Below, one piece after another: positions 219 through 39,313 of a DNA stretch of 39,313 bases. Made by a program: the position numbers and the translations under genes. The notes under the pieces were generated by a model that did not search any database, was not told the DNA's origin, and saw only the letters and a list, made by a program, of their open reading frames with translations. Numbering within the stretch: position 1 is the stretch's first letter; each line of letters starts with the position of its first letter. The DNA lies in the NCBI GenBank assembly GCA_029945625.1, contig JAQSCW010000023.1:1-39313 (forward strand). The letters are read 5' to 3'. This DNA comes from a bacterium. GTDB lineage: Bacteria; Bacteroidota; Bacteroidia; B-17B0; Aurantibacillaceae.

Positions 219-557
219 TTAAAATGTTAGATTAAACCAAATGTAAAAACCTTCAAAGTCACTTGCGGCAAAGCGAAAGCCAATAGTAAGTTGACCTGAT
301 TCTTTGGTGTCGGTGGTGGTGTAAATAGTCACTTCGTTGCCGTTAATGGTGGTTGTAATTGTTCCCTTTTTGCTATTGTGGTCGTGCCCTTTAAGTCTGA
401 GAAACGCTGATATCGTTGTGTTAAGACTCTTTTGGGTCTTGTCGGAAAATGCAGGAACGGTAAAATACTGTGCGGGATATCGCGGGTACTTTCGTTTCTG
501 TTCACATAGATAAAGTTCCCGAAGCGCAATAATGGCGTGTGATTTTGTTGTTTTCAT
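219..557 (-). CDS. Hypothetical protein of the integrated element (112 aa)
   Basis: I do not recognise this family. The protein is basic at the N-terminus (MKTTKSHAIIALREL) and then rich in Thr/Ile beta-type sequence (GTITTTINGNEVTIYTTT), ending in an aromatic tail (FYIWFNLTF). There is no signal peptide or membrane segment. Its ATG at 555-557 abuts the stop codon of the upstream gene (TAA at 558-560), and the next gene starts 10 bp downstream, so it is translated within a tight operon. Tight packing on the same strand argues that it is a real gene. It may be an accessory or replication-region protein of the element, but nothing in the sequence shows a reaction or partner. Confidence 0.7.
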   Translation of the reverse strand: MKTTKSHAIIALRELYLCEQKRKYPRYPAQYFTVPAFSDKTQKSLNTTISAFLRLKGHDHNSKKGTITTTINGNEVTIYTTTDTKESGQLTIGFRFAASDFEGFYIWFNLTF

Positions 558-1358
558 TTATTGCAATTCCTTTCCATCGGCAATTAATTTGTCAAAATAA
601 AACTTCAAATAATGCTTTTTGAGTCGAAATTCAAAAGTGCCGTTAAGTCTCTGTAACTCTTGAGTAAAAAGACATTGCCCTTGTTTATACTTCTGAAAAT
701 GTTGCCTTTTCAATTCGGTTTGATATTCTTTTTTCGCTAATTCCAAAAGCATAATAGCGTCTGAATCATTTGGTATGAGTGTCTTCACTCTCTTTCCGTT
801 TCTAATGGCATCTGCCCCGAATAGTTCACAAACGATGTCGTAGATTGCGTGGGGACACGGTGGCAACTCTTTTGTGTTTTGATAGTGTTCTAAATTTGAT
901 ACGGCTATTTGCCTTTTTTCCTCAATCGTAAATTCCTTTTTTGTAGCTGCTGGCATCTCGAATGATAACATTTTCAATGCTTCCCTTCTTTTTTGGCAAT
1001 TCAAAAAGCCATTTAAAAATTGGTGGTATGTTACCGGAGTTAACCCAAAATAGTCGCCAAATTCTTTCCGTACACCCTCGTGGAATGCTTGCCGAATCTC
1101 GTCAATAGTCAAATGGCAAAATCTACCCTGCCTTAATTCAGCCACCAAGAAAGAGGTGTGGGCGATATATGTATCTGCATCTTGTTTACCAAGCGGCTGG
1201 GTGTGAGTGAATGCGGCAACCACAATGTCATAACAATGGCGTTTTAATTCCTGTTCAGGTACTTCCCAAATCTTTGGTGATTGCCGAAGCTGTAGATAGT
1301 TAACTGGGGCAGTTGGTTTTGGTTCGCTGTTAGATTGCGCTGCTAATTGTGTGGTCAT
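558..1358 (-). CDS. Hypothetical protein of the integrated element (266 aa)
   Basis: A soluble, mostly helical protein with no membrane segment. The N-terminal 20 residues are Pro/Gln/Thr-rich linker; the middle carries the compact block GVRKEFGDYFGLTPVTYHQF (about residues 96-115), and the C-terminal half is Lys/Gln-rich and probably helical or coiled. It starts 3 bp after the stop of the replication-organizer-like gene (1362-2162) and ends flush with the next start, so the two are co-transcribed. Partners directly downstream of replication organizers in small Bacteroidota prophages and plasmids are often helicase loaders or replication accessory proteins, but I see no Walker motif here, so that role stays a guess from position. 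The family is not recognised. Confidence 0.75.
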   Translation of the reverse strand: MTTQLAAQSNSEPKPTAPVNYLQLRQSPKIWEVPEQELKRHCYDIVVAAFTHTQPLGKQDADTYIAHTSFLVAELRQGRFCHLTIDEIRQAFHEGVRKEFGDYFGLTPVTYHQFLNGFLNCQKRREALKMLSFEMPAATKKEFTIEEKRQIAVSNLEHYQNTKELPPCPHAIYDIVCELFGADAIRNGKRVKTLIPNDSDAIMLLELAKKEYQTELKRQHFQKYKQGQCLFTQELQRLNGTFEFRLKKHYLKFYFDKLIADGKELQ

Positions 1359-1361
1359 TTT

Positions 1362-2162
1362 TTAAATTAGTTTTTTGCCTTCGTTTATTTCGTTTAAATG
1401 TCGCTGTGCAGCAGTCATGCCGCTTTTGTCTTTTGATTTTATTTTCGCCCATCGCTGAAAATGTAGACGCAACTCGTCTACGTTCGGGTACTCTGTTTTC
1501 ATTGTCACCCTAAAATCCAGAACAAGCGCGAAAATTTCCGATTCGTTTTTTTTCAGATTTTTAGACGCAAGTTGGATTTGACTTTTATCATCCAAAAATT
1601 CTTTAATTAAATTTTCAGAATTATTTTTTTCTTTAAATAAAGTTTCTTTGTTTAAAGGTTCTCTTGTTTCATTGTTTACTTGTTTTATTATACTATACTT
1701 GCTTTCGCTAGTGCTTTGTACTGTACTTTCACTTTGCTTTGTATTGTGCTTTATCAGTGCTTTATCTAGTGCTTTATCTAGTGCTTTATTAAATTTTGAT
1801 AGCTCAACTATGTTGGAAGTGTGTTGGTTTTTTGACTTTTTAATTAGGTTCAAGAACCCAAAATTGACTAAATCAGTTAAAGATTTTATATAAGTGTTGT
1901 AGCTGTGAATGCCAATCCCTTGCATGGCTACTGTCGTCGGCAGATTGAATTTATTAGCCCAACCAAGACGGTTGCACAATTCTACTGCCCAAAAATAGAG
2001 CGCAATGTGAACGGGTTTTATTTTGTCAGGATTCTCGAACGCGAAATCAAAGAAGGTGCGGGAGAGCGTGTAACTATTAAGTGTAACGCTAACATCCTTT
2101 TGCGTTATTGTTTTCGCTGCGGGACTATTGCTGGCCGTGGGAATTTGCGTAGATTTGTTCAT
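1362..2162 (-). CDS. Replication-organizer/DnaD-like winged-helix protein (266 aa)
   Basis: Residues about 30-125 resemble the N-terminal winged-helix domain of phage replisome organizers: FFDFAFENPDKIKPVHIALY, then FWAVELCNRLGWANKF, then a helix-turn-helix-like stretch around MQGIGIHSYNTYIKSLTDL ending in a basic wing (NLIKKSKNQH). The middle (about 125-185) is low-complexity and Lys/Ser-rich and includes the ALDK repeats encoded by a DNA tandem repeat. The C-terminus (about 205-266) ends LRLHFQRWAKIKSKDKSG, like the short tail motif seen in Bacteroidota replication proteins. Likely role: binding the element's origin and recruiting host replication proteins; this is inference from fold and operon position. 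It could instead be a transcriptional regulator. Confidence 0.6.
   Translation of the reverse strand: MNKSTQIPTASNSPAAKTITQKDVSVTLNSYTLSRTFFDFAFENPDKIKPVHIALYFWAVELCNRLGWANKFNLPTTVAMQGIGIHSYNTYIKSLTDLVNFGFLNLIKKSKNQHTSNIVELSKFNKALDKALDKALIKHNTKQSESTVQSTSESKYSIIKQVNNETREPLNKETLFKEKNNSENLIKEFLDDKSQIQLASKNLKKNESEIFALVLDFRVTMKTEYPNVDELRLHFQRWAKIKSKDKSGMTAAQRHLNEINEGKKLI
1746..1790. repeat. In-frame tandem repeat, unit about 12 bp (GTGCTTTATCTA), about 4 copies
   Basis: Copies start at 1746, 1757, 1769 and 1781. On the minus strand the 12-bp units read as ALDK in the linker of the replication-organizer-like protein, so copy-number changes of whole units keep the frame. The surrounding 1690-1745 stretch has degenerate relatives of the same unit (GTGCTTTGTA, GTACTTTCAC), which suggests an old expansion in the linker. 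Confidence 0.8.
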
Positions 2163-2187
2163 TGTTTTTATTATTTCTTTTTTTAAG

Positions 2188-2206
2188 AACCCGCGGCGTG
2201 CGGGTT
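2188..2206 (+). terminator. GC-rich hairpin with T-tract on the plus strand
   Basis: AACCCGC (2188-2194) pairs with GCGGGTT (2200-2206) around a 5-nt loop and is followed by TTTT on the plus strand, the form of an intrinsic terminator for plus-strand transcription. All neighbouring genes run on the minus strand, where the hairpin lies between the HTH gene and the replication-organizer gene and is followed by A-runs rather than T-runs. It may block antisense read-through or act as a leaky minus-strand terminator. Confidence 0.5.
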
Positions 2207-2213
2207 TTTTAAT

Positions 2214-2504
2214 TTAGGCCAATTCTACTTTGTGAAAAAGTTTGTTTAACTCAGCAGCATCGACGTAGCTACTACCGCCCAGCTTGTACAAATTAATTTC
2301 ACCTGCTCGTATATGAGCGTAAAATTTAGACTTACTCATTAACTTGTTTGCACCCATATATACAGATGTTGCCAGTCGTTTACTTTGCGGGGAGTCAACG
2401 ACCGTTGGTGTTAGCGGTGCTTTATTTAGGATTTTTTGGAGGCTGGTAGTAATGAGGTGCTCCAATTCTGACGGGGTGATTTGCGTGATGGTAACGGCTT
2501 GCAT
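2214..2504 (-). CDS. Excisionase-like helix-turn-helix protein (96 aa)
   Basis: The C-terminal half (about residues 57-92) has the pattern of the MerR/excisionase-type HTH domain: MSKSKFYAHIRAGEINLYKL followed by GGSSYVDAAELNKLF, that is, a recognition helix, a short wing giving the required signal, and a closing helix. The N-terminal half is a helical extension with a short linker. Proteins of this size and fold next to a tyrosine integrase usually serve as recombination directionality factors or as repressors of the element. It is the first gene after a 150-bp gap holding repeats and a -7-like box, so it probably begins its own transcript. A purely transcriptional role cannot be excluded. 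Confidence 0.75.
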   Translation of the reverse strand: MQAVTITQITPSELEHLITTSLQKILNKAPLTPTVVDSPQSKRLATSVYMGANKLMSKSKFYAHIRAGEINLYKLGGSSYVDAAELNKLFHKVELA

Positions 2505-2524
2505 AATGTAGTTGTTTTACACTG

Positions 2525-2586
2525 CAAAGCTATGCTGCGTTTAGTCTTAGTACGAATTTAGAAAGCGTACTTTTTGCGTACTTTTT
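2525..2586 (-). promoter_or_regulatory. Promoter/operator region of the excisionase-like gene
   Basis: On the minus strand a perfect TAnnTTTG box (TAGCTTTG, plus-strand 2525-2532) sits 20 nt before the start codon; the -33 position has TTC rather than TTG. Just upstream, GCGTACTTTTT occurs twice head-to-tail (2565-2575 and 2576-2586, 11-bp period), a plausible operator for the HTH protein encoded immediately downstream. Confidence 0.45.
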
Positions 2587-2655
2587 TTGAATCCCTCTAT
2601 TAGTAAGGGTTTATGGGGGTGTGCTGTTTGGTTTTGAAAAAGAAACAGTGCGTTT

Positions 2656-3342
2656 TCAGCCAACTATCATATATTTTGCTTGAATATAAGCAAGTACTTT
2701 TTTAGCTATTTCCTGTGGTATTTGGGGCAGAATCAGTTCTTTTAGCATAGTTATATTTTTAGTTGTCACCTTGTCTCCTAAACCTTTATAAACTCTTGTT
2801 GCAAAAACCAGGTTAAAATCAGTGCAAATATTTTTACAGTATTGTTCGTGCGATTCACCTTGTCGTGGGCGTATTTTACTATCATCTAAAATTCTACAAA
2901 ACGCTGCTACCACTGTGTGTGGTGGCTGCTTGCTATCAAATTTTCCAGCTTGTAGATATTTATAGAATCTATACCAAGCCTCGGCATACACATAGGAATG
3001 AATTTTATATTGAAGCACAAATCCAAAGTCGTTGTGCTGACCTACACCGTGTCCGCTTAAATAAACAGTTTGTATGTACTGCTGGATTTCAATCAAATTT
3101 TTTTCATGATAGCTTGGCACGTCTTTCGTTTCAAACGTTTGACCGTACCACGTTGTATACGATCCTATTCGTTTAAAGCTGCAATCAAACAAAATGCCGT
3201 CAATGTTTTTTAGTTCCTGTTTCAGAAACAAATCACTTTTGACTGATTTTTTATATTGAACATTAAAGTCTTGTTTGCGCCGCTCAAACTCTGCGAGAAC
3301 CTGTGTTTCAAATAGTTCTTTATTGTTTATTTTCTTTGCCAT
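2656..3342 (-). CDS. Hypothetical protein co-transcribed with the integrase (228 aa)
   Basis: I do not recognise this protein. It is soluble, Lys-rich and aromatic-rich, without signal peptide or membrane segment. Notable segments are a central YLSGHGVGQHNDFGFVLQYK (about 94-113), a WYRFYKYLQAG stretch, and a C-terminal half with a helix-rich region ending QAKYMIVG. Its start is 3 bp after the integrase stop, so the two are one transcript and probably translationally coupled. Position between integrase and excisionase-like gene suggests a role in the life cycle of the element (mobilisation, control or cargo). No catalytic motif is visible to choose among these. Confidence 0.7.
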   Translation of the reverse strand: MAKKINNKELFETQVLAEFERRKQDFNVQYKKSVKSDLFLKQELKNIDGILFDCSFKRIGSYTTWYGQTFETKDVPSYHEKNLIEIQQYIQTVYLSGHGVGQHNDFGFVLQYKIHSYVYAEAWYRFYKYLQAGKFDSKQPPHTVVAAFCRILDDSKIRPRQGESHEQYCKNICTDFNLVFATRVYKGLGDKVTTKNITMLKELILPQIPQEIAKKVLAYIQAKYMIVG

Positions 3343-3345
3343 TTG

Positions 3346-4629
3346 CTACTTTTTTTTAGTATTCATAAAATCTTTGAACTCATTTTGTACGTCTGCATCA
3401 TCCACTTTCACATATTGAGCAAATTGTTCGTAGGACTGGTGACCGCTCACTTTCATAATTAATTCAGCTTTCAAACCTTCTGCCAATGCAAGCGTGCAGA
3501 ACGTGCGGCGACCCGTGTGGCTGCTGATTAAGTCATAACGAAACTCTAAATGTTTGATTTTGTTTTTTCCTACAAGCCTAATAAATGAGTGCTGTTGTGT
3601 GAATCCTGCGAGCTTGCAAAGGTCTTTCAAGTATTCATTAAATTTTTGATTTGTGATTATTGGCAAACCTTCGGGGTACTTTTTGAAGATGTTTTTTAAG
3701 TGCTTTTTCAGTTGTGGGTGCATTGGTATAGTCACTTGTTCGTTTGTTTTTTGTTGATAGATTGTGATTGATGTGTCACTTATATTATTTTTATCTATCA
3801 GTTTGGGAATGTCGCTGAAACGCTGACCTGTGAAGATTTCGAGTGCAAACAAATCACGCACTCTTTCTAAGCGTGTATTGTTTGTCAAGTCTAAATTTAA
3901 CAGCGTTTCGACTTCATGCAGCTTCAACGCTATCTTAAAAGGTGTTTGCAACTCGTCGAGATATTTAAACTCATTCACTTTTATTGCAGGCGTTATCATT
4001 TCCTTTCGATTAACGAAGTGCAAAAACTGTTTGAACTTTTTTAGGTTCTTGTTGATTGAATTGTTTGAGAATTTTTTAATAGCAACAAAGTACTTGTCCC
4101 GCCAATCGTTCCAGAACGTTTCATTGATTTCATTTAGCTGTATGTTCTCTTTAAACGCTGTCAAGTGAGCGTATAGAGCGTTAAAGTGTTGACGTGTTGC
4201 TACGCCCCATACACTCTGTGTGCCGCTTAGAAAGAGTAGCCAAGCACCATCAAATGTTATTGTTTGGGTTTCAATGAGACCCGCGCGGCTGTAGTACTCG
4301 TCTCTTACATTGTCGAGTGTGAACGATTCGTTTTTGCCCGATAACTCAGTGTGAATTTTTATAAGTGTGTCTCTAATGTTATGCAGCTGGTTTCGGTACT
4401 CAATTTCAAAGGGGGTGTGTCGTCGAACTAAGTCTTTGCCGCCTTTGCGCTCCCGAAAATGGGTATATGACGTTAAGAATGATTCACCTGATGGGAACCG
4501 CAATCTTTCAGACTTGCTTTTTTTCTTTGTACTGATGCTGACATATAAGCTGGACTGTGTTTTTGCTTTAGGGGAACTTAAATAGAAGTTCACATTCAAC
4601 CCGTTTTTTTTAATTGTTAGTTTTGCCAT
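3346..4629 (-). CDS. Tyrosine recombinase/phage-type integrase
   Basis: Catalyses site-specific recombination between the element and a chromosomal tRNA gene. With the ATG at 4627-4629 as start (427 aa; an in-frame TTG 18 bp upstream is less likely) the full catalytic set is visible: R270 in TGQRFSD, K294 in the beta-hairpin, H371 and R374 in HTGRRTF, H397 in SGHQS, and the nucleophile Y406 in FAQYVKV. The N-terminus (MAKLTIKKNGLNVNFYL) is the beta-rich arm-binding domain usual in Bacteroidota integrases, followed by a SAM-like core-binding domain (about 120-215). The gene ends the element on its right side; candidate arm sites and the att site lie within 230 bp of its start. All catalytic residues are present, so it should be active. 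Confidence 0.95.
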   Translation of the reverse strand: MAKLTIKKNGLNVNFYLSSPKAKTQSSLYVSISTKKKSKSERLRFPSGESFLTSYTHFRERKGGKDLVRRHTPFEIEYRNQLHNIRDTLIKIHTELSGKNESFTLDNVRDEYYSRAGLIETQTITFDGAWLLFLSGTQSVWGVATRQHFNALYAHLTAFKENIQLNEINETFWNDWRDKYFVAIKKFSNNSINKNLKKFKQFLHFVNRKEMITPAIKVNEFKYLDELQTPFKIALKLHEVETLLNLDLTNNTRLERVRDLFALEIFTGQRFSDIPKLIDKNNISDTSITIYQQKTNEQVTIPMHPQLKKHLKNIFKKYPEGLPIITNQKFNEYLKDLCKLAGFTQQHSFIRLVGKNKIKHLEFRYDLISSHTGRRTFCTLALAEGLKAELIMKVSGHQSYEQFAQYVKVDDADVQNEFKDFMNTKKK

Positions 4630-4710
4630 AGTTGTAATTTTTGTCAAGGTTCAAATCCAAATAAAACTGAACCCAAAAATTTAGACTTGAGTTCAAGTTC
4701 TTTTTTACTT

Positions 4711-4911: not shown

Positions 4912-5220
4912 GAGCGTCAAAAGCTTGCTTTTGTAAGCGCAGATGGAAACAAAAAAGTATTCTGCGGAGCAGAATATTTTTGCATTGTGACTCTGGGCCA
5001 ACGTGGGGATCAGCGAGCGGAGCGAGCTAATCCCAATCATTAAAAAGAGCGTCAAAAGCTTGCTTTTGTAAGCGCAGATGGAAACAAAAAAGTATTCTGC
5101 GGAGCAGAATATTTTTGCATTGTGACTCTGGGCCAACGTGGGGATCAGGGAGCGGAGCGAGCTAATCCCAATCACTAAAAAGAGCGCCTAAAACTTACTT
5201 TTGAAAGCGCAGATGGAAAC
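4912..5220. repeat. 135-bp tandem duplication rich in inverted repeats
   Basis: Two near-identical 135-bp copies (4912-5046 and 5047-5181) and a partial third (5182-5220). Differences between the two full copies are few, for example C/G at the AGCGAGCGG segment and T/C before the terminal A-run. Each copy holds CAAAAGC-TT-GCTTTTG (4918-4933) and TATTCTGC-GGA-GCAGAATA (4958-4976) flanked by A- and T-runs, which makes a bidirectional terminator-like hairpin. TGTTTCCAT (4901-4909) pairs with ATGGAAACA (4943-4951) around the first hairpin. No believable protein is encoded. Confidence 0.85.
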
Positions 5221-5257
5221 AATCACCCTCCACTTTTCCACCATCTCCAAAAAAAAC

Positions 5258-33927: not shown

Positions 33928-36024
33928 ATGCTAGACCGGCCCATTGAATATTTAAAAGGGATTGGCCCTCAACGCGCCGAAGTACTTAAAAAAGAACTTG
34001 GCATCTTTTTTTTTGGCGACCTGCTTACCCATTACCCCTTCAGGTATGTTGACCGCACCAAATTTCATGCCATTCGCGAAATTTCGGAAGAACTGCCACA
34101 TGTACAATTACGGGGTGTGATTGAACGACTCGAACTGGTAGGCACTAAAAACGCAAAACGTTTGATAGTTCTTTTTAAAGATAATACTGGCATGGTGGAG
34201 CTGGTATGGTTCAAAGGGTACAACTGGATGGCCCAGCAATTAAAAATGGGAACCGACTACATTGTGTTTGGAAAAGCCACTCTTTTTAATGGACGGTACA
34301 ACATTGCTCATCCCGAAATAACTGCCGCAACACCCGAAGTGATTAGCCAGCAGTCTGCTTTGCAGTCGGTGTACAATTCCACGGAGAAGATGAAATTGCG
34401 CGGCCTCGATAGTGAGGGAATCCGCAAAGCACAACGCCATTTATTGTCTCAATTGCACGCTCAAAACATTCCCGAAACGCAGAGTAACGCGGTGATGGAA
34501 GAGCAGCAACTCATGTCTCGTTTTACTGCCTTTCAAAAAATTCACTTTCCTGAAACACCCGATGAACTCAGGAGAGCAGAGGTTCGTTTAAAATTTGATG
34601 AGCTGTTTTATATTCAGTTAAGATTGTTAAAACTGAATAAAACAAGAGCACATACGGTGCAGGGTTTTGTGTTTTCAAAAGTAGGGGATCACTTCAACGA
34701 TTTTTTTAAACGGTATTTGCCTTTTGAACTTACAGGCGCGCAAAAACGCGTGCTGAAAGAAATTCGGTTAGATGCGGGGAGTGGCCGGCAAATGAACCGC
34801 TTACTGCAGGGAGATGTTGGCAGCGGCAAAACATTAGTGGCATTAATGAGTATGTTGCTGGCACTTGACAATGGTTTTCAGGCTTGCCTCATGGCTCCCA
34901 CCGAAATTCTGGCTCAACAGCATTTTGCTACATTTAGCGAATTGTTGGGTAAACTGCCGCTGAAAATGGCATTGCTCACCGGCTCCAGTAAATCCAAAGC
35001 CCGAAAACAAATTCATACCGAATTAATGAGTGGGGAGATCAACATTCTCATTGGCACACATGCGCTGATAGAAGACATCGTTCAATTCAAGAATTTGGGT
35101 TTAGTAGTCATTGACGAACAGCATCGCTTTGGGGTGGCGCAGCGAGCAAAACTCCGCGATAAAAATTCCTGTCCCCCGCACACGCTCATCATGACCGCAA
35201 CTCCTATTCCACGCACCCTTGCCATGACACTATACGGGGACCTTGATACAAGCGTCATTGATGAACTTCCGCCCGGCCGCAAGGCCATTAAGACCGAACA
35301 TTTTAAAGAAAGTCAGCGGCTCAGAGTCTACGGTTTTATGAAGGAGCAAATTGAAAGGGGAAGGCAAATCTACGTGGTATACCCTTTGATTGAAGAAAGT
35401 GAAAAGATGGACTACCAAAATCTGCAACAAGGCTACGATCATTTGTTGACGGAATTTCCGCAGCCACGCTACCAAATTAGCATTGTTCACGGAAGACTGA
35501 CTAACGAACAAAAAGAGGCGGAAATGCAACGCTTCATTAAAGGAGAAACCCAGATAATGGTTGCTACGACTGTGATTGAAGTAGGGGTGAATATTCCCAA
35601 TGCCAGCGTGATGGTGATTGAAAGCGCCGAGCGCTTTGGACTCTCACAATTGCACCAGCTCAGAGGTAGGGTGGGCAGGGGTGCTGAACAAAGTTACTGC
35701 GTGCTCATGACCGGCTATAAATTAGGACCCGACAGTCGTTTACGTATGGATACCATGGTGCGCACCAACGATGGTTTCGAGATAAGTGAAGTGGATCTAA
35801 AGCTCAGGGGTCCAGGCGATATTGAGGGTACACAGCAGAGTGGTATTATGGATCTGAAACTCGCCAACCTGGCACAAGATGGAAAGATTCTTCAAATAGC
35901 CAGACAAGTGGCGCAGGGTGTTTTGGACGAAGACATGAATCTGGAACTCGAAAAGAACCGGGTATACAAGATCGAGTTAGAACGGCAACTTCACAACCGA
36001 CAAAACTGGAGCAAGATTGGATAA
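33928..36024 (+). CDS. recG: ATP-dependent DNA helicase RecG
   Basis: Branch-migration helicase that reverses stalled forks and processes Holliday junctions. The 698-aa product has the N-terminal wedge (OB-fold) domain, starting LDRPIEYLKGIGPQRAEVLK, then helicase motif I GDVGSGKT (about 295-302), motif Ia APTEILAQQH, motif II DEQH (about 396-399), motif III TATPIPRTLA, motif V TTVIEVGVNIPNA and motif VI HQLRGRVGRG. The closing TRG region (DGFEISEVDLKLRGPGDIEG) is the family signature for fork movement. All motifs are intact and the length is normal. The start is the ATG at 33928. It is followed by an 840-bp non-coding region. Confidence 0.98.
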   Translation: MLDRPIEYLKGIGPQRAEVLKKELGIFFFGDLLTHYPFRYVDRTKFHAIREISEELPHVQLRGVIERLELVGTKNAKRLIVLFKDNTGMVELVWFKGYNWMAQQLKMGTDYIVFGKATLFNGRYNIAHPEITAATPEVISQQSALQSVYNSTEKMKLRGLDSEGIRKAQRHLLSQLHAQNIPETQSNAVMEEQQLMSRFTAFQKIHFPETPDELRRAEVRLKFDELFYIQLRLLKLNKTRAHTVQGFVFSKVGDHFNDFFKRYLPFELTGAQKRVLKEIRLDAGSGRQMNRLLQGDVGSGKTLVALMSMLLALDNGFQACLMAPTEILAQQHFATFSELLGKLPLKMALLTGSSKSKARKQIHTELMSGEINILIGTHALIEDIVQFKNLGLVVIDEQHRFGVAQRAKLRDKNSCPPHTLIMTATPIPRTLAMTLYGDLDTSVIDELPPGRKAIKTEHFKESQRLRVYGFMKEQIERGRQIYVVYPLIEESEKMDYQNLQQGYDHLLTEFPQPRYQISIVHGRLTNEQKEAEMQRFIKGETQIMVATTVIEVGVNIPNASVMVIESAERFGLSQLHQLRGRVGRGAEQSYCVLMTGYKLGPDSRLRMDTMVRTNDGFEISEVDLKLRGPGDIEGTQQSGIMDLKLANLAQDGKILQIARQVAQGVLDEDMNLELEKNRVYKIELERQLHNRQNWSKIG

Positions 36025-36100
36025 ATCCTTGTGCTAAGCCCTTTCAAATACGACTTTATGGTATCTTTTAAAAATACCTAGGGACAGATACTTACGCCAT

Positions 36101-36173
36101 TCTTAACTTCTAACTTCTAACTTTTAATTCTTAATTCTTAATTCTTAATTCTTAATTCTTAATTCTTAATTCA
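36101..36173. repeat. Tandem 7-bp repeat TTAATTC, about 8 copies
   Basis: After a degenerate lead (CTTCTAA units, 36101-36125), TTAATTC or its phase TAATTCT repeats without interruption to about 36173. Short AT-rich tandem arrays of this kind change length by replication slippage. Confidence 0.85.
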
Positions 36174-36190
36174 TTTCCCCTCCGTCTGCC

Positions 36191-36297
36191 ATGCGTATGC
36201 TAAGCGTATGCTAAGCGTACTCTAAGCGTACTCTAAGCGTACTCTAAGCGTACACTAAGCGTACACTAAGCGTGCATAGTGCGTGCTTAGTGCGTAG
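36191..36297. repeat. Tandem 11-bp repeat TAAGCGTACTC, seven exact-length units plus degenerate ends
   Basis: Units start at 36201, 36212, 36223, 36234, 36245, 36256 and 36267. All keep the core AAGCGT; the last three bases drift (TGC, CTC, CTC, CTC, CAC, CAC, then GCAT). Degenerate units extend to 36191 and 36297. The 11-bp period is close to one helical turn, so the GCGTA cores lie on one DNA face. The period is not a multiple of three and no protein is encoded. Confidence 0.9.
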
Positions 36298-36298
36298 T

Positions 36299-36340
36299 TT
36301 TCTCGTGTAACATACGAGAAAGTGCGTAAAACGACGCACT
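36299..36340. other. Two adjacent perfect hairpins at the end of the 11-bp array
   Basis: TTCTCGTGT (36300-36308) pairs with ATACGAGAA (36312-36320), one G-T wobble and a 3-base loop; immediately after, AGTGCGT (36321-36327) pairs with ACGCACT (36334-36340). The AGTGCGT of the second stem repeats the last degenerate units of the array (AGTGCGT at 36278 and 36289), so it may have arisen from it. Confidence 0.8.
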
Positions 36341-36456
36341 ATGAATTCCTACCCCGACTTAAACCCTTTTAGCCTTTTGAGCCAAATCCGAGAAAAATCC
36401 CCCAAATTTAGCCCCAAATTATTTTTGATTTAACTTTCGTGGATGCGAGAAATTAC

Positions 36457-36867: not shown

Positions 36868-39313
36868 ATGAAAAGAATCCTGATTATCACTCTCCAACTG
36901 CTGACTTTGGGCGTATTCGCTCAAGCTCCCCAATTGATCAACTACCAAGGTGTTGCCCGAAATGCCTCAGGCGTTCCCATAAGTAACAGAACGCTCGGAA
37001 TAAAGTTCGAGATCTTTCAGGGAAGCAGTGTTACTGCTGTATTTACCGAAACCAATGTGGTGGTGACCAATAATTTGGGGTTGTTTACCACGCAAATTGG
37101 TAAAGTTAACACAGCCGGTATTGGAAATATAGATTTTGGTGCAGGGGCGTTATCTTTGAAAATAGGGGTGGATAGCACTGGTGGATCAAATTTTGTGAAC
37201 ATGGGCACCCAAAGTTTGGTAAGTGTGCCATTTTCAATGTATGCCGCTTCGGTTCCGGCTTCCTATACCAATAATATTTTAACTATTGGAAAAAGCACCT
37301 TTACCTTAAACACCGGCAATCAGGCTATTTACACATCGAGTACCGGTATTTCTATTATTTCAAGTTCGATCATTACAAATACGTTGCCCGATCAAACGGT
37401 GACCATTGTTCCCGGAAATTCGAATGTGAATGTCACAGGTACATACCCTAATTTCACTATCGCTGCAACGCCAACCCTGGGAATTACCGGAAACAGTTTG
37501 ACAATTAGTGGTGGCAATACTGTTGCACTTCCTGCTTCCTCCAACGCAAGTTTGGTAGGATCGGGTGCGGCCAATGTGACCACTTTAAGTTCTAATTCAT
37601 TCAGTGTGAATGTACCTCCCACCAATATCGCGTCAGCTGGCGCTGCAACGGTATCGGGTACTTATCCTAACTATACTGTGAGTGCACCGGCAGCCACACC
37701 AAACACAACTTTAACGGGAGCCGGTTCGGCAACAGTATCGGGAACTTTCCCGAACTATACCGTGAATACCCCTGCTGCTACACCAAGTACAAACTTGTCG
37801 GGAACCGGTGCTGCCACTGTAACCGGAACTTTCCCGAACTATACGGTGAGTGCCCCCGCAGCAACACCTTCAACAAATCTGCAATCCGGAGGTTCTGCCA
37901 CTGTAACCGGAACTTTCCCGAACTATACGGTGAGTGCCCCCGCAGCAACACCTTCAACAAATCTGCAATCCGGAGGTTCTGCCACAGTGACCGGAACGTT
38001 TCCGAATTACACAGTGAGTGCCCCTGCAGCAACACCTTCAACAAATCTGCAATCCGGAGGTTCTGTCACAGTTACCGGAACGTTTCCGAATTACACAGTG
38101 AGCGCGCCTGCAGCAACACCTTCAACAAATCTGCAATCCGGAGGTTCTGCGACAGTGACGGGAACTTTTCCAACTTACACAGTGAGCGCGCCTGCAGCCA
38201 CAGCATCCACAAATCTACAAGCGGGTGGTTCTGCCACGGTGTCGGGAGCATTTCCAAATTATACGGTGAGTGCGCCTGCGGCAACAGCATCTACAAATCT
38301 GCAAGCCGGTGGCTCTGCTTCTGTAACAGGAACGTTCCCGAATTATACAGTGAGTGCACCTGCAGCTACGCCAAGCACCGGACTTACTCAAAGTACGAAT
38401 GTGATCGTAAGCGGTGCTTTTCCTAATTACACCATTGCTTCTACACCAACCCTGTCATTAATAGGAAATAATTTGGGGATCAGTGGTGGTAATACACTCG
38501 CGATTCCTTCCAATACCATTGTGGCACTTACCACAACAATTCAGACAGGCGGAGCAGCAATACTTACCACGTTCGGAGCAAATGACTATAGTATCCACGT
38601 GCCTAATTCAACATTGACTTTAAATGGCGACAACCTTAGCGTAAATGGAGGGAATACCGTTACAATCGCGCCGACCTTAAGTGTTACCGGAAATGTTTTA
38701 AGTGTAGGACCGACTTCAAATACCGTGACCTTACCTAGCGGTCCCACGCTAGTAGGAGCAGGAGCTGCCACGGTTACTGGTGGTCCAAATTATACCGTAA
38801 ATGCACCCGCCGCTACTCCTAGCACAAACATTACAGGAGCCGGCTCTGCAACAGTAACAGGAACCTTTCCAAACTACACAGTGAGTGCCCCTGCGGCTGC
38901 AGCTCAAGTGGCTCAAACCATTACTCCACAAGGAGCAGTAACAGTAACAAATGGTGTAAACAGCTTCACCGTAAATGCACCGGCGCAAGTGGCTCAAACC
39001 ATTACCCCACAAGGTGCAGTAACAGTAACAACCGGAATAAATAGTTTTACAATTGGTTCTGCAGCAGCAGTTGCCCAAACATTAGTACCACAAGGTGCAG
39101 TAACAGTAACAAATGGTGTAAACAGCTTCACTGTAAGTGCACCTGCACAAGTGACTCAAACCATTACACCTCAGGGTGCAGTAACAGTAACTACCGGAAT
39201 AAATAGTTTTACCATTGGAGCACCTGCGGCAACTGCTCAAACAATCACGCCACAAGGCATTGTCACAGTGACTACCGGAGTAAATAGTTTCACCGTTGGG
39301 GCACCTGCACAAA
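36868..39313 (+). CDS. Giant repetitive fibre-like surface protein (partial, more than 815 aa)
   Basis: The frame starts at the ATG at 36868 and is open to the window edge, so the C-terminus is missing. Signal peptide MKRILIITLQLLTLGVFAQ. The conserved N-terminal domain (about 20-130: PQLINYQGVARNASGVPISN, IKFEIFQGS, NLGLFTTQIGK, SVPFSMYAASVP) is the one found at the start of Bacteroidota tail-fibre-like or 'cell wall anchor' proteins. After it come beta modules of the type L.ITGN.L.ISGGNTV.LP, then eight 28-residue repeats (GSATVTGTFPNYTVSAPA), a mixed section, and at least four 27-residue repeats (AQTITPQGAVTVTNGVNSFT). Such sequences suggest a long beta fibre on the surface; homologues often end in an intramolecular chaperone or a T9SS domain, unseen here. 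Confidence 0.88.
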   Translation, partial: MKRILIITLQLLTLGVFAQAPQLINYQGVARNASGVPISNRTLGIKFEIFQGSSVTAVFTETNVVVTNNLGLFTTQIGKVNTAGIGNIDFGAGALSLKIGVDSTGGSNFVNMGTQSLVSVPFSMYAASVPASYTNNILTIGKSTFTLNTGNQAIYTSSTGISIISSSIITNTLPDQTVTIVPGNSNVNVTGTYPNFTIAATPTLGITGNSLTISGGNTVALPASSNASLVGSGAANVTTLSSNSFSVNVPPTNIASAGAATVSGTYPNYTVSAPAATPNTTLTGAGSATVSGTFPNYTVNTPAATPSTNLSGTGAATVTGTFPNYTVSAPAATPSTNLQSGGSATVTGTFPNYTVSAPAATPSTNLQSGGSATVTGTFPNYTVSAPAATPSTNLQSGGSVTVTGTFPNYTVSAPAATPSTNLQSGGSATVTGTFPTYTVSAPAATASTNLQAGGSATVSGAFPNYTVSAPAATASTNLQAGGSASVTGTFPNYTVSAPAATPSTGLTQSTNVIVSGAFPNYTIASTPTLSLIGNNLGISGGNTLAIPSNTIVALTTTIQTGGAAILTTFGANDYSIHVPNSTLTLNGDNLSVNGGNTVTIAPTLSVTGNVLSVGPTSNTVTLPSGPTLVGAGAATVTGGPNYTVNAPAATPSTNITGAGSATVTGTFPNYTVSAPAAAAQVAQTITPQGAVTVTNGVNSFTVNAPAQVAQTITPQGAVTVTTGINSFTIGSAAAVAQTLVPQGAVTVTNGVNSFTVSAPAQVTQTITPQGAVTVTTGINSFTIGAPAATAQTITPQGIVTVTTGVNSFTVGAPAQ
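37693..38364 (+). repeat. Eight in-frame 84-bp tandem repeats
   Basis: Repeat starts lie at 37693, 37777, 37861, 37945, 38029, 38113, 38197 and 38281, each exactly 84 bp (28 codons) apart. Units from 37861 to 38112 are almost identical at the DNA level, which points to recent expansion. A further unit-like copy (GSATVTGTFPNYTVSAPA) reappears near 38840. Confidence 0.92.
38911..39313 (+). repeat. In-frame 81-bp tandem repeats, about five copies, cut by the window end
   Basis: Starts at 38911, 38992, 39073, 39154 and 39235, exactly 81 bp (27 codons) apart. Copies alternate between VTNGVNSFTV and VTTGINSFTI versions, so the true repeating block may be 162 bp. Confidence 0.9.

Follow-up and report, generated by a model that had tools for sequence, protein, structure and literature searches.

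Iterons can be embedded in a phage replication-initiator gene, as in lambda, whose origin lies within the O gene. ParR-type plasmid centromeres carry 11-bp direct repeats, and REP/BIME elements are palindromes associated with a RAYT transposase. A further class, the long simple sequence repeats with units of 5-11 nt, was surveyed by Mrazek and colleagues in 2007 and is summarised in PMC4679880, which also describes intergenic heptamers, slippage being proposed as the origin of such repeats, as well as TAACTGA heptamer arrays in Beggiatoaceae, Cyanobacteria and some Bacteroidetes.

The locus that we compare with these systems is an array of 11-bp units in a 39,313-bp stretch of DNA (the window) from a member of the Aurantibacillaceae (Bacteroidota; contig JAQSCW010000023.1). 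We believe, with a probability of about 0.6, that it belongs to a lineage-specific, non-coding hairpin repeat with two copies in the genome, one arm of which was enlarged by local duplication, and that it probably has no specific role for the genes on either side, recG and a fibre-like gene. The features referred to below are:

33928..36024, + strand: recG, upstream neighbour (NCBIfam NF008165 and TIGR00643, both above cut-off)
36099..36172, + strand: heptanucleotide array ATTCTTA, 10.6 copies, directly before the 11-bp array (TRF, 82% matches)
36182..36192, + strand: degenerate first unit CCGTCTGCCAT, in array register, core CCGT at 36182 (unit table)
36193..36295, + strand: 11-bp array, ten GCGT cores, seven AAGCGT at 36202-36273 (TRF, motif counts, unit table)
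36264..36292, + strand: hairpin 1, built from the final units of the array; arms of 13 nt, 85% complementary; loop of 3 nt (inverted-repeat search; terminator-like match with a short T tract)
36288..36341, + strand: hairpin 2; outer 14-nt arms 36288-36301 and 36328-36341, 93% complementary; inner 10-pair stem 36299-36321, loop AAC (inverted repeat, fold, same block in the second copy)
36321..36340, + strand: alternative small hairpin AGTGCGT/ACGCACT, with the eleventh GCGT (36324) and the inverted core ACGC (36334) (positions, sequence)
36868..39313, + strand: repeat-rich fibre-like protein gene, downstream neighbour; window part of an ORF that ends at 39480, beyond the window (TRF, ORF; family matches below cut-off only)

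With the long simple sequence repeats, as PMC4679880 presents them, the locus shares a short unit (11 nt, with heptamers adjacent), head-to-tail direct copies, an intergenic position and a sporadic occurrence between species. However, it runs into hairpins, it is a two-copy element, and its core changes less than its spacers. The TAACTGA arrays of the same paper are likewise intergenic direct repeats of patchy species distribution, but they differ in unit length and sequence, and in Maribeggiatoa most of them stand directly before start codons, which the window array does not.

The likeness to the iterons of phage initiator genes consists in GCGT arrays of one-turn spacing, with a conserved core and a variable spacer, whereas the window array lies in non-coding DNA, with no initiator gene directly next to it. 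ParR centromeres resemble it in their 11-bp direct repeats and differ in that the window element has a hairpin cap and is flanked by recG and the fibre-like gene rather than by parM and parR. As with REP/BIME, we are dealing with an intergenic hairpin element beyond gene ends, but instead of many dispersed copies per genome we found only two, neither of them beside the genome's one Y1_Tnp match. A REP/RAYT pair was rejected here, as that sole match lies on contig 29 and the copies on contigs 23 and 8; the start of the hairpin was not found in the 3.2 kb around the match, allowing up to three mismatches.

Structure and setting of the array

Ten GCGT cores follow each other at exact 11-bp steps, the first starting at 36193 and the last at 36292 (array span 36193-36295), and the longer core AAGCGT starts, at the same exact steps, at 36202, 36213, 36224, 36235, 36246, 36257 and 36268. 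TRF reports a period of 11 with 6.7 copies and 95% matches. A first-pass annotation of this DNA had described seven exact 11-bp units with an AAGCGT core running into two hairpins, and as a description of array and hairpins it was accurate. The number and the spacing are as it said, but the units are not identical, since the full ones come in three variants (GCGTATGCTAA twice, GCGTACTCTAA three times and GCGTACACTAA twice). These seven clean units form three uninterrupted blocks of 2, 3 and 2, and such blocking is seen in 6 of 210 orders (p = 0.029). Between adjacent units we counted one change in the core against 17 in the spacers, a count in which the last spacer is already hairpin sequence and in which block duplication makes the units non-independent.

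The spacing is well beyond chance: GCGT-N7-GCGT occurs ten times in the window, nine of them within the array, where 0.78 would be expected, and ten was reached in none of 100 dinucleotide shuffles. In the whole genome, GCGT-N7-GCGT-N7-GCGT occurs eight times, all within the window array, and its reversed control does not occur. An eleventh GCGT stands at 36324, 32 bp after the last array core, and the inverted core ACGC follows 10 bp further, at 36334. The array is thus an intergenic direct tandem repeat of a 5-11 nt unit beyond chance, as are the long simple sequence repeats, and it also has the conserved core and the regular spacing near one helical turn of replication iterons.

The longest gap in the window between stop-to-stop open frames of at least 110 codons, 822 bp in length, holds the array, which agrees with its earlier placement in the longest gene-free stretch; no open frame of at least 110 codons lies between recG and the fibre-like gene. 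After the recG stop at 36024 come the heptamer array, the 11-bp array and the two hairpins, and the next start is at 36868. The NCBIfam matches also bear out recG as the neighbour. In contrast, the downstream gene had been called a giant surface-fibre gene, but it is not giant: the ORF (36868-39480) encodes 870 aa. Its sole fibre-family match scores 20.9 bits against a curated cut-off of 60. Tandem repeats of 81 and 84 bp were found by TRF within this gene (window 37645-39312). Two proteins encoded in the window have type IX secretion tails, as would suit a member of the Bacteroidota.

Hairpins and folding

Both hairpins are present after the array as had been claimed, but they overlap in part: bases 36288-36292 are common to the two, so that they cannot both form fully at once. 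RNA folding gave z values of -5.2 on the plus strand and -4.2 on the minus strand, with none of 200 shuffles equally good on either strand; these values overstate the structure, since shuffling breaks up the repeat too. As to a MITE, which would have terminal inverted repeats and a target-site duplication, the window copy has a perfect 10-bp inverted pair (36275-36284 and 36334-36343), which by reading is imperfect in the second copy described below.

Lying beyond the recG stop, the element might act at the RNA level, as a 3′ structure by which the transcript of recG is terminated or stabilised, and its folding as well as two terminator-like matches at 36264-36296 would fit such a role. We nevertheless regard this as very unlikely. 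The T tract after the stems is short and not a good one, terminator-like matches number 3 in the region against 0.8 in shuffles, and no Rfam family covers the element, the sole match in the region being outside it and below the gathering score. Moreover, the inner stem shows, by eye from the alignment, two breaking changes against one pair-compatible change between the two copies, and the second copy adjoins a tRNA-Gln gene to which it stands in the opposite direction.

A second copy in the genome

A DNA search of the same genome revealed a second copy of the element on contig 8 (G000:C8:830-913), 85% identical over the matched part; a third match was weak (E 3.7). The two copies have the same hairpin and differ at 13 of 84 aligned columns. 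Where the window copy has seven AAGCGT, the contig 8 copy has two TAAGCGT units, and its GCGT-like cores (one of them CCGT) follow at steps of 11, 11, 11, 10 and 10 bp, then 32 and 10 bp. The last two steps, in the hairpin part, are common to both copies. None of the 24 core positions (GCGT/ACGC) differ between the copies as against 13 of the 60 other positions (one-sided Fisher p = 0.008), in a test whose cores we chose once the sequences had been inspected, and whose alignment may have been anchored by those cores. Conservation of the cores and of the 32-bp and 10-bp steps would not be predicted by pure neutrality, and we consider it suggestive, not decisive. Because the inner stem is less well kept than the cores, any constraint looks more like that on a DNA site than on an RNA structure.

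On one side of the contig 8 copy there is the tRNA-Gln gene, on the minus strand, with the copy beyond its 3′ end, and then a TMEM260-like gene (PF11028); on the other side, 155-bp repeats (L002 1-561) extend up to the contig end. The full-length flanks of the two copies show no clear homology, mononucleotide shuffles scoring as well in 248 of 300 cases on the left and 71 of 300 on the right. A single brief stretch of similarity between the copies occurs in the first 150 bp to the right of the element (equalled by 6 of 300 shuffles), and the duplication may therefore have reached a little past the element itself.

The first-pass annotation had also proposed that drift in copy number could tune expression, and the unit number indeed differs between the two genomic copies. 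An operator array acting on the fibre-like gene by such changes, in the manner of phase variation, would suit a downstream gene that is repeat-rich and weakly fibre-like. However, some 570 bp separate the end of the array from the start codon of that gene, and on the readable side of the second copy tRNA-Gln comes first, which makes this explanation highly improbable.

Distribution in relatives and databases

A covariance model trained on both copies recovered these two, and no third, in their own genome and found none in the 39 other genomes of the genus, nor, with stricter filters than in the genus search, in the 86 other genomes of the order. A DNA search at E ≤ 0.01 likewise found no element in 59 of 59 other genomes. 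The recG end was found in 37 of the 40 genus genomes (78% identical in the closest congener), and we read 30 loci downstream of recG, 29 of them outside the own genome. The array is absent from all 29, without any GCGT-N7 pair on the recG strand; one locus (L294) has a single such pair on the opposite strand, and two (L280 and L297) are truncated. Period-7 arrays are found downstream of recG in three of these 29 congeners (L292, L297 and L300). It had been suggested earlier that lack of conservation in any relative, together with no linked protein binding or transcript change, would mark the locus as neutral slippage DNA. Between the species searched the element was indeed found in none, whereas within the genome it recurs as the contig 8 copy.

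The spacing, too, is peculiar to this genome within its genus, as 41 TAAGCGT pairs were found in the 40 genus genomes and the 11-bp spacing occurs only in the seven of the own genome. In the class, covered by 395 genomes, runs of four GCGT with 11-bp spacing are found in three genomes (the own genome, G273 and G351) against seven for the reversed control, and AAGCGT triples with free spacing in 11 against 32. Since these class-wide counts do not exceed the reversed controls, 11-bp arrays are not typical of the class as a whole. Two consecutive 11-bp AAGCGT steps, among the matches listed for the 395 genomes, occur in the own genome only. Within that genome, AAGCGT-N5-AAGCG with one mismatch gave 53 matches versus 76 for the control, with exact matches confined to the two known loci. 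Degenerate pairs of AAGCGT with this spacing are therefore no commoner than the control, which argues against a wide code in the genome. A literature search, limited in library and terms, returned no description of this element.

GCGT arrays in viral contigs and in other genomes

Five GCGT at 11-bp spacing occur in viral contigs at no fewer than 120 loci, and 106 of the 120 listed are in open frames of at least 100 codons. We compared these arrays with two controls, the comparison being limited to the matches listed in each set. At least 94 distinct GCGT arrays were listed, 49 of which have diverse spacers; 45 of the 49 are in ORFs of at least 150 aa, and in these 45 the ORF is on the strand opposite to GCGT in 43 cases and the array follows a Y..YQ motif in 25. 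The 10-bp control (at least 103 arrays listed) gave 29 diverse arrays, 23 in ORFs of at least 150 aa, 17 on the opposite strand and none with Y..YQ, and another core at 11 bp (at least 102 listed) gave 30, 17, 15 and seven, respectively; the Y..YQ motif had been chosen after viewing the first (GCGT 11-bp) set. Five viral array ORFs were picked by hand for PHROGs, and four of them match DnaD-like loader or replication initiation families (L079, L072, L127 and L100), the fifth (L068) matching families of unknown function only.

Several of the viral loci (L017, L026, L035, L079, L082 and others) have degenerate 11-bp GCGT arrays within ORFs, usually on the opposite strand, and are possible origin iterons. 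A different arrangement was seen in L054 (8071-8290; also L183), where about 20 copies of CTAAGCGTGCT-type units, which agree with the window unit at 10 of 11 bases, lie outside the listed ORFs on a 175-kb contig of the viral collection that has other tandem repeats.

These arrays bear on the earlier proposal of cooperative protein binding to an iteron-like array. The window element could be a protein-binding iteron array, possibly the relic of a phage or plasmid origin or of a partition site, with an initiator-like protein contacting GCGT once per turn and the hairpin serving as part of the origin. In favour of it are the invariant GCGT cores and one-turn steps, seen in both copies, and the viral GCGT-N7 arrays in ORFs, with Y..YQ more frequent among the arrays listed than in the controls, and the family matches of four of the five picked ORFs. 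Against it, the gap beyond recG has no open frame of the size given above, no initiator gene contains the array or is its immediate neighbour, and the readable side of the contig 8 copy, with its tRNA-Gln and TMEM260-like genes, has no initiator or regulator either. Moreover, neither 72,556 plasmid records nor 50,697 phage records matched the DNA of the element, the two exact hairpin patterns had no match in the viral contigs, and identical neighbouring units point to recent duplication. What stands of the proposal is the one-turn array with its invariant core, and not an immediate initiator or regulator neighbour; given the degenerate 11-bp GCGT arrays in some phage initiator-like genes, "iteron-like" is a fair analogy, while an actual iteron site seems to us rather unlikely.

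In genome contigs, three TAAGCGT at 11 bp were found in 36 stretches, 13 of them from records named Bacteroidota (eight from one Bacteroidales MAG, one from another, three from Winogradskyella vidalii and one from Crocinitomix). The remaining 23 belong to other groups and include many 3-copy repeats that resemble plain short duplications. The two Bacteroidales MAGs have nine (L357-L365) and five (L366-L370) dispersed loci with 11-bp TAAGCGT arrays, mostly inverted, with TAAGCGT meeting ACGCTTA. The search pattern itself selected these 14 loci, none of which overlaps an open frame of at least 80 codons, and five of the nine in the first MAG lie between convergent frames. They show that such families exist, and not that they are kin to the window element. 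Some of the MAG arrays come, by reading, after terminator-like hairpins.

A broader proposal, by analogy, is that one GCGT per helical turn forms a binding code that recurs: phage initiator genes would use it and, independently of them, so would dispersed intergenic elements of bacteria, namely those of this genome and of the two Bacteroidales MAGs. An initiator-like protein would then read the window array as an iteron site of the chromosome, be it an origin (domesticated or relic) or a site concerned with the nucleoid or with topology. We find this quite unlikely. If the cores were truly selected, they would suggest an unrecognised DNA-binding system with sites that a simple GCGT-N7 search can find, and phage origin iterons would be linked to intergenic repeats.

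Pairs of AAGCGT in genome G424 number 30 versus 26 for the reversed control, a slight excess whose striking side is that 28 of the 30 have the 11-bp spacing, and four further genomes gave 8 against 16, 23 against 1, 11 against 7 and 6 against 6. G351, a genome of the same class, has five loci (L134, L136, L138, L140 and L142) with 11-bp TGTGCGT-type units, most of them, by reading, with an inverted half of the ACGCACAGCAAACGCACA type. A REP/RAYT assignment was dropped for both G424 and G351, neither of which has a Y1_Tnp match.

Origin of the array

The hairpin repeat that we favour would be an element of about 100-165 bp, in which an arm of 11-bp GCGT units leads into a hairpin. We infer that local tandem duplication, either through replication slippage or through unequal exchange, lengthened the arm of the window copy from some two AAGCGT units to seven, and that the direct repeats and the hairpin may have helped this growth. 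The three-block order of the units and the two versus seven units of the copies are what local tandem duplication leaves. The element would sit in permissive intergenic DNA past the 3′ end of recG, beside a heptamer array that is broadly alike in kind. Tandem repeats of this kind are found elsewhere in the genome, as a census of 367 kb outside the window (about 9% non-coding by a crude proxy, with places counted by hand) gave 17 other non-coding tandem-repeat places, among them three heptamer arrays and a further 11-mer.

The surroundings of the two copies differ, with recG and the fibre-like gene next to one and, on its readable side, tRNA-Gln and the TMEM260-like gene next to the other, and the element probably has no specific role for either recG or the fibre-like gene. 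An ordinary meaning of the array is thus the best reading of the present evidence. If it is ordinary, it would illustrate clearly the way in which a conspicuous periodic arm can develop on a small hairpin repeat, and would caution against taking helical spacing alone as a sign of protein binding.

Other repeats and genes in the window

TRF found two further direct repeats at the other end of the window. One, at 4912-5222, has a 135-bp unit in 2.3 copies with 96% matches. The other, at 1710-1787, consists of direct repeats of about 12 bp (TGCTTTATCTAG type) and lies in an ORF of 266 aa on the minus strand (1362-2162) for which Pfam, PHROGs and NCBIfam gave no match. This ORF is near a tyrosine recombinase gene (3346-4647) and, with its embedded repeats, recalls initiator genes with embedded iterons. 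The recombinase gene, of the Phage_integrase family, adjoins several ORFs without a Pfam match, and the region 219-4647 on the minus strand may be a mobile element.
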